A DNA stretch of 64,000 bases from Oscillospiraceae bacterium (lineage in GTDB: Bacteria > Bacillota > Clostridia > Oscillospirales > Ruminococcaceae): NCBI GenBank assembly GCA_009777635.1, contig WRLK01000005.1, positions 1 to 64,000 on the forward strand, written 5' to 3'. Shown in pieces: positions 26,238 through 62,166 of the stretch. Every line of letters starts with the position of its first letter. Positions within the stretch are counted from its first letter, which is position 1. The notes under the pieces are model-generated. The model made no database searches and was not told where the DNA came from. It saw nothing but the letters and a program-made list of their open reading frames with translations. A program made the position numbers and the translations under genes.

Positions 26238-26399
26238 GAAGCTGTATTCAATAACGAGAAATGCTAGCGCGGCGAAGCGAAAATTTCGCAGTGCAAGGCA
26301 AATTTTTAAAGTAATGCTTTGTGCATTGCAAGAAAATTGAACGACGCAATGCGGAAATTTCGCCGCCGGGATGGCGTTTTGAGTATTGAATACAGCTTC
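26238..26399. repeat. 162-bp inverted-repeat (MITE-like) element, copy 1
   Basis: Perfect 16-bp terminal inverted repeats GAAGCTGTATTCAATA (26238-26253) / TATTGAATACAGCTTC (26384-26399); interior also largely self-complementary; termini shared with 60778-60847. Confidence 0.8.
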
Positions 26400-57922: not shown

Positions 57923-57963
57923 AGGAAAGGGGCCGCAGTTCAATACGGCTCCATATCCTTTTT
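57921..57963. terminator. Bidirectional terminator
   Basis: AAAGGA..GGGGCCG CAGTTCAATA CGGCTCC..TCCTTTT stem-loop between convergent genes. Confidence 0.8.
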
Positions 57964-58720
57964 AGCTCTCCCATTGCGAAAGAATTTTACGCATCCACGC
58001 ATGAACGTCCATCGAATAAACGTCTTGAAGGTTACGGCGGCTAAGCACCGTTTCAGCGTCGCCCGCGGAAACGATGCGACCGTGGCTTAGCAGCATGACG
58101 TCGGTACCGTAGGCCCTTGCAAGGCTTAAATCATGCACCACCGATATGACCGCGCGTCCCGGCTGCTTCACCCATTTTCGCACTTGCTCAAATACCTGCT
58201 TTTGGTATACCAGATCAAGGTGGTTCGTCGGCTCGTCGAGGATTAGAATATTAGGGTCCTGGGCTAACGCCTGCGCTAAAAACGCGCGCTGCAATTCACC
58301 GCCCGACAGCGTGAGCACCGATTGGTTCTCCAAAGCCAGCATTCCCGTCATTTCAAGGGCTTTTTGAACGCTTTCCCTGTCTTTGCCGCTTGCCCGCTTG
58401 AAAATCCCTTGCGAATATGAATAACGGCCCATCCTGACGATCTCGCCTGCCGTAAAGGAATAGGCGACCGCGTTCGTCTGGCTTAAAGCCCCGATTTTTT
58501 GCGCCAAGACAGCCGGCTTCATACGGCTTACATCCTGCCCTTTATACAGTACATCCCCCGTATACGGAACGTTTTGCACAATGGCTTTAATCATACTGCT
58601 TTTACCTGAACCGTTAGGGCCCACTACCACAAGCCATCTGTTTTCATGAAGGGAAAAGCTTATGTTATCAACGATTGTGAGGGCTCCGTATTGAACGGTT
58701 AGGTTCTTGACTTCGAGCAT
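57962..58720 (-). CDS. btuD: Cobalamin/iron-type ABC transporter ATP-binding protein
   Basis: VGPNGSGKSSMIKAI; LSGGELQRAFLAQALAQDPNILILDEPTNHLD; cobalamin riboswitch upstream of operon. Confidence 0.85.
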   Translation of the reverse strand: MLEVKNLTVQYGALTIVDNISFSLHENRWLVVVGPNGSGKSSMIKAIVQNVPYTGDVLYKGQDVSRMKPAVLAQKIGALSQTNAVAYSFTAGEIVRMGRYSYSQGIFKRASGKDRESVQKALEMTGMLALENQSVLTLSGGELQRAFLAQALAQDPNILILDEPTNHLDLVYQKQVFEQVRKWVKQPGRAVISVVHDLSLARAYGTDVMLLSHGRIVSAGDAETVLSRRNLQDVYSMDVHAWMRKILSQWES

Positions 58721-58722
58721 TG

Positions 58723-59742
58723 CTATCTCACTTTCCTTGAAGTATAAAAGATATATACGAATACGACCGAGCCGATAAGCGAGGTTACGACTCCTAAGGG
58801 GAGCTCTAACGGCCGCAGCGCCGTGCGTCCTAAAAGGTCGGCGAGCATCAGGAATATCGCCCCCGAAAACATGGAAGCCGGAAGCAGCCGCTTATGTCCG
58901 GGACCTGAAAGCATGCGTGTCATATGCGGTATCACAAGCCCCACGAACGCAACCGTGCCGCCGATGGATACGCATACACCCATAAGCGCGGATACCGTAA
59001 GCATTACGTTGAGCTTTACTTTTTTCACATCAACGCCGATATTTCGCGCGTTGTCCTCACCTGTGGCAAAGGCGTCCAATTCCCGGGCATAACGGATGAG
59101 CACAGCGCCGAAAAACACAAGCGCTAAAAGCAGCGTCAGGGCGTTTTGGTAGCTGCTTTGCGCAAGGGAGCCCATCATCCAGAAGGTGATCGGGCGCAGC
59201 TTGTCGCCCGAAAACGTGATGATAAAGCTTATGATGCTGTTTGCAAACATGGAAAAGACGATGCCTATCAGTATTATTGTGTTTGTGGACAGCGAATAGT
59301 CCAATTTATATGCCAGTGACAATATGACAACCAGTGACAAAAAGGCAAAAAGCATGGCCATGATCATTGTTCCTGCAAGCGGTACGCCCGGTATCGTTAT
59401 GCCAAATCCGATGGATATGACCGCGCCCAGCGACGCGCCCGATGAAACCCCTAGCGTTGAGCAGTCAGCAAGGGGGTTTTGCAAAAGACCCTGCATCGAC
59501 GCGCCGCACAGCGAAAGCGCCGCGCCCACAAGCGCAACGCACAGCACGCGCGGAAGCCGCACCGACAGTATGATCGGAGCCGATACCCCGTCTAAAGCCG
59601 GCTGTGACGCAAACATGGACGCAATCGTTTGCAGCACCTCCGGAGCCGGGACATTGACGCTTCCGACGCAGACGCACAAAAGCGCGGCCAGAACGGTTGC
59701 AATACCGTAATAAAGGTATTGTAAATTGCTAAAAGTTTTCAT
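58723..59742 (-). CDS. btuC: Cobalamin/iron-type ABC transporter permease (FecCD/BtuC family)
   Basis: RLPRVLCVALVGAALSLCGASMQGLLQNPLADCSTLGVSSGASLGAV; GTVAFVGLVIPHMTRML. Confidence 0.88.
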   Translation of the reverse strand: MKTFSNLQYLYYGIATVLAALLCVCVGSVNVPAPEVLQTIASMFASQPALDGVSAPIILSVRLPRVLCVALVGAALSLCGASMQGLLQNPLADCSTLGVSSGASLGAVISIGFGITIPGVPLAGTMIMAMLFAFLSLVVILSLAYKLDYSLSTNTIILIGIVFSMFANSIISFIITFSGDKLRPITFWMMGSLAQSSYQNALTLLLALVFFGAVLIRYARELDAFATGEDNARNIGVDVKKVKLNVMLTVSALMGVCVSIGGTVAFVGLVIPHMTRMLSGPGHKRLLPASMFSGAIFLMLADLLGRTALRPLELPLGVVTSLIGSVVFVYIFYTSRKVR

Positions 59743-60665
59743 GTTACCCTCGTATATTCATACAGCGCTTCAGCCGCGTTTACAAGCCTTGGGCCCGGGC
59801 GGGCGACCTCGTCGTTTCCTATGACGAACACAGCTCCGTTTTTGACTGCCGTAATATTTTCCCATCCGGAGCGTGCCAAAATCTCATCCGCAGGCTCAGG
59901 TCCGTCGCCGAAGTACATTGTGATGGTGACGATATAGTCCGGGTCGCGCTGGATGATTTGCTCCTCGGAAATCTCGGCCCAGCCATCCACGTCGTCAAAG
60001 GCGTTGCGAAGCCCCAGCATCGCGGCAAGCTCGTCCATAAAAGTATTTTTACCCGCCGTCCAAAGCCCGTGTTCAAGCGGCGAAACCTCAAAGTATACGG
60101 TCTTTCCATGCGCTTCATAAGATTTCGACTCCATTTCGGCGAAGGACTGCTTCATGCTGTCAACAAGCTCCTTTGCCTGTGCTTCCCTGCCTGTAACCGC
60201 GCCGATAATCCCGATTGAGGCGTACACTCCGGCGATATCGGATGCGTTGTTTACGATCACTTTCACACCTGTGCTTTCTAAAGCGCGCACCTGTTCATTG
60301 CCATGATTCATTTGCGATATTAAAACCACATCCGGCAAAAGCGCCATGACCTGCTCGACGTTTAGGCTGTCGCCCGATTCCACGGACAGGACGTTAAGCG
60401 CCGCTTCGGGATAATCGCAATATATTCCGCGCCCGACTAGCAAGTCCCCCGCGCCAATGGCATACAGGATTTCAACGTCGGCCGGCATGATTGCGACAAT
60501 GCGGGCCGCGGGCTTTTCCAGCGTGATTTCGCGCCCCGCCATATCGGTCACGGCAATGGCGGAGGCATGCGCCGTCCCTGCGTTTTCCTGAAAAACGAAC
60601 GTGCCGCAGGCGGAAAGCGAAGCCAATGAGATGATCGCAAGTAATACAGCAATACTTTTTTTCAT
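59739..60665 (-). CDS. btuF: Cobalamin-type ABC transporter substrate-binding lipoprotein
   Basis: Lipobox SLSACG; VTDMAGREITLEKPAARIVAIMPADVEILYAIGAGDLLVG; directly downstream of the riboswitch. Confidence 0.85.
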   Translation of the reverse strand: MKKSIAVLLAIISLASLSACGTFVFQENAGTAHASAIAVTDMAGREITLEKPAARIVAIMPADVEILYAIGAGDLLVGRGIYCDYPEAALNVLSVESGDSLNVEQVMALLPDVVLISQMNHGNEQVRALESTGVKVIVNNASDIAGVYASIGIIGAVTGREAQAKELVDSMKQSFAEMESKSYEAHGKTVYFEVSPLEHGLWTAGKNTFMDELAAMLGLRNAFDDVDGWAEISEEQIIQRDPDYIVTITMYFGDGPEPADEILARSGWENITAVKNGAVFVIGNDEVARPGPRLVNAAEALYEYTRVT

Positions 60666-60680
60666 GGGAACCTCCGTGTT

Positions 60681-60723
60681 CTATAAAATAAAACGTGCGG
60701 GAGCAGCTGCTCCGGCACGTTTT
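60681..60723 (-). terminator. Intrinsic terminator of the riboswitch expression platform
   Basis: Minus strand AAAACGTGCcGGAGCAGCTGCTCCcGCACGTTTTATTTTAT. Confidence 0.88.
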
Positions 60724-60777
60724 AAGTACGACATACATAAACCGCATGCACCTTTTGAGTCCGAAAAGCTGCACTTT

Positions 60778-60847
60778 GAACCTGTATTCAATAATGAGAA
60801 AATCCGCAATGGCCTCCAGAACGGCGTTGATTATTGAATATGGGTTC
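60778..60847. repeat. 70-bp inverted-repeat (MITE-like) element, copy 2, inside the btu leader
   Basis: GAACCTGTATTCAATAATGA (60778-60797) / TGATTATTGAATATGGGTTC (60828-60847); termini match copy 1. Confidence 0.78.
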
Positions 60848-60852
60848 TTAAT

Positions 60853-61027
60853 CATACGGATGTGTTCTGACTTAAACATCAACACGGTTTTTCGCCTTCC
60901 CAAAATTTCTTTCAGTGGCTTTAAGAATCGGTGCAACTCTTAAAAAACCGCTCCGTTATTACAGCAGCGTTCCTGTGCGGGATTTCCACCCGGCTTCCTG
61001 TGCGGTGTTTCGCACAAAATCCGTATG
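60853..61027 (-). ncRNA. Cobalamin riboswitch
   Basis: Minus strand: 9-bp P1 CATACGGAT...ATCCGTATG (61019-61027 / 60853-60861); GGAAGCCGGGTGGAAATCCCGCACAGG core; GCCACTG...GGGAAGGCG; AAGTCAGAACACATCCG B12-box-like. Confidence 0.93.
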
Positions 61028-61047
61028 ACAATATGAAATTTGTAAAA

Positions 61048-61076
61048 ATCATAACATAAATGTCGCTTAACGTCAA
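61048..61076 (-). promoter_or_regulatory. Sigma-A-type promoter of the btu operon
   Basis: Minus strand TTGACG (61071-61076), 17-bp spacer, TATGAT (61048-61053). Confidence 0.8.
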
Positions 61077-61176: not shown

Positions 61177-62166
61177 ATGCTTAAAAGAAACGAATCTTAC
61201 CGCTTAGTAACAGCGGGACTTCTCACGGCGATCGGACTGATCCTGCCATATTTTACTTCACATGCTTTCGGCGTGCCCGGCACAATCCTTTTGCCGATGC
61301 ATATACCGATTTTATTGTGCGGTCTTCTGTGCGGGCCTAAATACGGCGCAATATGCGGGCTTATCGTCCCGGTAATATCAAGTGCGCTGACCGGAATGCC
61401 TCCGGCATACCCAATGCTGCCGATCATGGCGGTCCAACTGTTTGCAATGGGATTTGTAAGCGGACTGCTTTACCGCAAACTGAACATAAATCTTTACGCC
61501 GCCCTGATAGGCGGGATGATTACCGGGCAGGCGGTATACGGCCTTATGTTCTACGCGCTTTTATTTATCGGCAGCGGCGAGCTGCGCGCGTTATCGGTTC
61601 CGGCTGCAATCATGGCGGGGCTTCCCGGGCTTATCATCCAGCTTACGCTGATACCGGCTATTGTTTATATACTCCGGAAATACGCGGCAGTCCTTTTTGA
61701 AGACGCTAAGGCGCCGGCTAAAAAGGCGGACGCCGTAAAAGAAAGCGCTCTTAATTTAATCGCGGGCGGATCAGTATCCTGCGTCGTTATAAAAGACGGC
61801 GTAATTGCCCATACCGCGGACGGGCGCGGCGTTTCCCCTTTAATCAATATCTACGGCAGTGATTCCGGCCTGCTAAAGGACGCCTTTGTTGTAGATAAAA
61901 TTATCGGCAAGGCGGCGGCGATGATATTGGTTTTGGGCGGCGCAAAACGCGCGCATGGCTCAGTTATGAGCGCCTCGGGCCGCGCGTATCTTGAAAGGCA
62001 CGGCGTCATAGCCGAATACGGCCGCTGTGTGGACGTTATTTCAAACCGCGGCGGTAACGGAATTTGCCCGATTGAAAAATCAGTGATATCCATCGACGAC
62101 CCCGAGGAGGGGATGAAGGTTATCACCTCTACGATAGACGAGCTTAGAAAAGCGGCCGGCCACTGA
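61177..62166 (+). CDS. ECF transporter S-component fused to a DUF1893-like C-terminal domain
   Basis: N-terminal multi-TM S-component (LVTAGLLTAIGLILPYFTSHAFGVPGTILLPMHIPILLCGLLCGPKYG); C-terminal soluble SCVVIKDGVIAHTADGRGVSPLINIY...VVDKIIGKAAAMILVLGGAKRAHGSVMSASGRAYLERHGV. Confidence 0.82.
   Translation: MLKRNESYRLVTAGLLTAIGLILPYFTSHAFGVPGTILLPMHIPILLCGLLCGPKYGAICGLIVPVISSALTGMPPAYPMLPIMAVQLFAMGFVSGLLYRKLNINLYAALIGGMITGQAVYGLMFYALLFIGSGELRALSVPAAIMAGLPGLIIQLTLIPAIVYILRKYAAVLFEDAKAPAKKADAVKESALNLIAGGSVSCVVIKDGVIAHTADGRGVSPLINIYGSDSGLLKDAFVVDKIIGKAAAMILVLGGAKRAHGSVMSASGRAYLERHGVIAEYGRCVDVISNRGGNGICPIEKSVISIDDPEEGMKVITSTIDELRKAAGH

Follow-up and report, generated by a model that had tools for sequence, protein, structure and literature searches.

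The leader of a btuFCD-like operon in the window (the whole 64,000-nucleotide stretch of DNA that was analysed) carries a 70-bp MITE copy between the aptamer helix P1 and the expression-platform hairpin P13 of a cobalamin riboswitch. Judged from the letters, B12 control of this leader would be weakened with a bias to ON, the MITE being a passive cause or a passenger and not a regulatory part, a reading to which we assign a probability of about 60%. The leader may serve as a natural experiment on how far P13 can be moved from a cobalamin aptamer and may inform whether a self-folding mobile element inside a riboswitch is tolerated or uncouples the switch. If btuF were locked ON, small mobile elements would have an easy route to altering vitamin-uptake control.

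Architecture of the btuF leader

As outlined in Table 1, the leader runs on the minus strand from the promoter through the aptamer, the letters AUUAA, the 70-bp element, the letters AAA, the P13 hairpin and the terminator to the RBS and btuF. With the covariance model RF00174 the aptamer scored 69 bits (E 6.3e-15, cut-off 31.5), and 7 nt of the element fall inside the Rfam envelope at its 60841 end, where they occupy unpaired model positions. Since a sigma-70-type promoter is placed upstream of the aptamer, the element lies within the leader RNA. An earlier note on this DNA had proposed a long hairpin at this place, and on the leader strand the element indeed folds at -22.8 kcal/mol (z = -4.3), which none of 200 shuffles equalled. 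The inverted repeats were rightly described as imperfect, but their length had been given as 20 bp; the arms comprise 18 bp each, of which 16/18 positions match (two mismatches), and are 34 nt apart. The 70-bp element is without its own gene. The intrinsic terminator that had been claimed between the element and btuF was recovered by folding, though a simple terminator scan missed it, probably owing to the C.C mismatch that its stem contains. At 61177-62166 the window furthermore holds a divergent gene for an ECF-transporter S component (PF12822) fused to a DUF1893 domain (PF08973).

Table 1 Coordinates of the features in the window
Feature	Position	Strand	Remarks
70-bp MITE copy with internal deletion, from a 162-bp family	60778..60847	.	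Hairpin in btuF leader RNA
Left terminal inverted repeat	60778..60795	+	GAACCTGTATTCAATAAT
Right terminal inverted repeat	60830..60847	-	GAACCCATATTCAATAAT (reverse complement)
Left flank TTT	60775..60777	+	Presumed degraded TTA target-site duplication copy
Right flank TTA	60848..60850	+	Presumed target-site duplication
Empty site expected without element			ATTAAGTGCAGC (leader strand)
Second family copy, full-length 162 bp	26238..26399	.	Flanks TTT/TTA, like the btuF-leader copy
Cobalamin riboswitch aptamer	60853..61027	-	P1 5' strand 61019-61027, P1 3' strand 60853-60861
Rfam RF00174 envelope of the aptamer	60841-61040		
Aptamer loop expected to kiss L13	60968..60972	-	Letters GAACG
P13 hairpin, expression platform	60746..60774	-	RNA GUGCAGCUUUUCGGACUCAAAAGGUGCAU; by fold, position compared with relatives
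Predicted antiterminator, 5' half	60761..60772	-	GCAGCUUUUCGG; common to P13
Predicted antiterminator, 3' half	60703..60715	-	CCGGAGCAGCUGC; common to terminator
Intrinsic terminator hairpin	60690..60723	-	U-rich tail AUUUUAUAG at 60681-60689; by fold
Sigma-70-type promoter	61048..61076	-	TTGACG-17-TATGAT, TG-extended
btuF	59739..60665	-	Periplasmic-binding-protein family PF01497, 308 aa
btuC-like (FecCD, PF01032) and btuD-like (ABC_tran, PF00005)	57962..59742	-	Downstream in btuF operon

The element starts 5 nt after the 3' strand of P1, just as the earlier note had it. For comparison, 48 other aptamers were drawn from relatives and from BtuF orthologues; measured from P1, the centre of the first downstream hairpin loop has a median distance of 17.5 nt (range 6.5-39) in this set. 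In the window the P13 loop lies ~92 nt past P1 with the element in place and, by sequence count, ~20 nt past P1 once the element and one duplication copy are taken out. Because this removal brings the loop to the distance typical of the relatives, the element is seen to occupy the P1-P13 linker, and as regards anatomy alone the earlier suggestion that it sets the aptamer apart from the expression platform holds. A family copy in this linker was found in 0/48 of the other aptamers. A covariance model of P13 gave no consensus structure, as MAFFT set the P13 hairpins out of register. Searching for an empty site, we found no leader from the same species, no close alignable orthologous leader (the nearest BtuF orthologues are ~45-62% identical) and no alignable btuF leader among the genomes of the genus, and for the closest in-genus BtuF orthologues (G003, G005 and G006; 47-51%) the sequence retrieved upstream of btuF contains no riboswitch.

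The MITE family and its candidate parent

A search with the 18-mer end pattern, allowing up to 3 mismatches, returned 59 matches in this genome compared to 2 for the reversed control, which rules out a chance palindrome. Pairing of these ends resulted in 22 family copies, many of which are 161-162 bp long, while shortened forms measure 48-74 bp and few copies are intermediate. Identical 3-bp flanks, TAA or TTA, were observed for 15/22 copies of this genome and for 5/5 paired copies of the congener G009. The flanks of the btuF-leader copy differ at one of three positions, and with its middle lost and these TTT/TTA flanks the copy is probably old. The arms fall into subfamilies (TATTC, TCTTC, TGGTC and others) that differ between copies, yet within each copy they match; for example, arm position 9 was matched in 34/36 copies where 13.5 were expected. 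Such co-variation is what recognition by a shared transposase predicts and is indistinguishable from selection on the hairpin.

The end motif is common in this genome, G009 and the congener G010, present in G004, sparse in the rest of the genus and near zero in 50 other genomes from the family and order, and among the 61 genomes the MITE family is essentially confined to the genus. A relative of 73% was detected on a Subdoligranulum variabile plasmid, and comparison of the MITE with phages revealed no match. In G010 (contig C25, L132 238-1143), inverted MITE ends surround an unrelated ORF of 231 aa for which Pfam gave no match, possibly a passenger-carrying relative of the MITE. This genome furthermore holds a 32-bp remnant (contig C48, L002 1493-1524), barely longer than two MITE ends, directly upstream of the RBS of a gene whose product resembles, by eye, alanine racemase.

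The candidate parent is an 837-bp IS of the congener G002 (contig C2, L256 1470-2306) with the ends GAACCTGTTCTCAATAA and the flanks TGA/TGA, whose end is alike to the MITE end at 15/17 positions. It matches DUF4096 (E 1.5e-21) and DDE_Tnp_1 (E 2.5e-6) in two reading frames, as is characteristic of an IS5-type element, and its transposase is split over these two frames. No autonomous element with matching ends was found in this genome, a draft assembly that may lack repeats. Taken together, the multiple copies, the target-site duplications, the 162-bp full-length form, the IS5-type relative and the 0/48 occurrence at the same site in other aptamers strongly support the view, already put forward as a MITE-like insertion, that the 70-bp repeat is a MITE. 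The family is uncatalogued here but conventional, and its biology is ordinary.

Only one other paired copy follows an aptamer at a distance of up to 450 nt. This full-length 162-bp copy of the congener G009 (L044 2400-2561; L044/L242) has TAA/TAA flanks and is located between the terminator and a btuF-like start; it is an independent insertion of the same family at a different place of a btuF riboswitch leader. With tens of copies per genome, two btuF leaders may have been struck coincidentally.

Coupling of the switch and competing explanations

When the isolated platform was folded as a function of transcript length, the best fold was P13 at 63-68 nt, the antiterminator at 72-78 nt and the terminator from 84 nt onwards. 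The antiterminator comprises 12-13 bp with energies of -16.5 to -25.1 kcal/mol (-25.1 at 78 nt). All three structures are downstream of the element and were obtained with or without it, and the probability of the closing pair of the element was 1.0 in every truncation tested. As the ends of the element pair with each other, it is computed to form a closed hairpin outside the switch.

In the history that we propose, a non-autonomous IS5-type MITE would have integrated into a TWA site of the P1-P13 linker in the btuFCD-like operon leader and would later have been shortened and eroded by mutation, presumably in this order. P13 is predicted to compete with the antiterminator, in which the P13 5' strand pairs with the terminator's 5' arm; in analogy to Priestia megaterium metE the B12-bound aptamer would stabilise P13 via a loop-loop contact and bring about termination. 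The insertion lengthens the chain between the aptamer and P13 by ~70 nt, and the aptamer loop that L13 should contact is mismatched.

Complementarity between this loop and L13 is typical of cobalamin riboswitches and lies outside the Rfam RF00174 model. The loop of the window reads GAACG, where NNCCG, CUCG or CCCAG are usual, and GAACG is absent from the relatives examined; the native L13, CGGACUC, suits with its CGGA loops of the type UCCG or GCCG and has no match to GAACG. In the relatives, CUCG occurs with CGAG and CCCAG with CUGGG, and the loop core matches L13 at a mean of 4.5/5 positions (mostly 4-5/5; permuted pairs 3.77 +/- 0.16), a figure which is supporting rather than decisive because the loop letters were chosen by eye and one bulge was allowed in a test devised after seeing the data. 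Furthermore, the consensus letters GAGACC close to the aptamer's 3' end, kept by most of the relatives shown, are altered in the window (AACAC-A), and so is the short core helix. The mismatch of GAACG with L13 and the changed GAGACC stretch suggest weakened B12 control. The coupling in the window is thus probably weakened and biased to ON, the bias being expected because in the standard logic a P13 without stabilisation would yield to the antiterminator. The 69-bit aptamer together with the intact antiterminator and terminator fits a switch that is still selected and counts against weakened control.

A possible, if less probable, explanation is that the self-folded MITE is a neutral spacer which lets P13 still reach the aptamer, leaving the riboswitch normal. 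In its favour, the element closes on itself through its paired ends and folds irrespective of its surroundings, the antiterminator and terminator are intact, and in the other cobalamin leader of this genome (L064) P1 and P13 are likewise separated by an additional small hairpin. The Streptococcus pneumoniae T-boxes, apparently functional despite a BOX element (PMC3049150), point the same way. The neutral spacer is, however, at odds with the mismatched kissing loop, the altered short core helix and the altered GAGACC stretch. A re-wired or locked switch in which the element supplies a surrogate L13 is very unlikely: its interior CGUUC could form a perfect 5-bp match with the changed loop GAACG, and the element emerges next to P1, the normal place of P13, but the match was found after the fact, is expected in 6% of interiors after shuffling (32% if bulges are allowed) and involves letters that, by prediction, are already base-paired within the element and would cost 4.8 kcal/mol to open.

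The earlier note had also suggested that the element may contribute to an antiterminator; more generally, it might replace a switching strand, and its position between aptamer and terminator is in keeping with such a role. This claim did not withstand the folding analysis: the duplexes of the element with the terminator arms, P13 and the P5 hairpin have energies equalled by 23-37% of shuffled elements, and with the element hairpin closed throughout and a complete antiterminator downstream we regard such a role as highly improbable. Although MITEs and IS elements sometimes bring their own promoter, which would here bypass the aptamer, the element has no promoter-like site on the btuF strand and is itself followed by the terminator, making this extremely improbable. 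That the repeat is a conserved structural part of a riboswitch subclass instead of an insertion might be read from its neat location at a helix junction, but dozens of unrelated sites carry this repeat with target-site duplications, and conservation with covariation at this site, which the earlier note had named as the refuting observation, was looked for and found in none of the 48 other cobalamin riboswitches; on present sequences it is ruled out, its probability being next to nil. We retain the reading of a passive MITE in a leader whose B12 control would be weakened.

Relation to known systems

Like IS5-family-derived MITEs of the IS1031/IS427 type, the family is short, non-coding and mostly intergenic, with 3-bp TNA duplications and terminal inverted repeats that resemble the ends of an IS bearing DUF4096 and DDE_Tnp_1 domains, but it is without a match to a named MITE family here; its placement in the IS1031/IS427 groups is presumptive and follows from their target sites.

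A mobile hairpin repeat in a riboswitch leader, expected to fold independently, is shared with S. pneumoniae, where, upstream of trp, a BOX element is flanked on both sides by T-box riboswitches (PMC3049150). There the BOX element separates two complete riboswitches, whereas the MITE of the window splits one, parting P1 from P13.

The closest counterpart of the switch itself is the repressing cobalamin riboswitch of P. megaterium metE, in which P13 follows the aptamer in the expression platform, L13 kisses the aptamer loop, and the logic of P13, antiterminator and terminator has been established by mutation (PMC10653944). Common to both leaders are the aptamer, a kissing-capable P13, the terminator and the mutual exclusion of P13 and antiterminator. 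They differ in that the 5' strand of P13 enters the antiterminator here, in contrast to the 3' side in metE, and in that the leader of the window has a 70-nt insertion before P13 together with a mismatched kissing loop.
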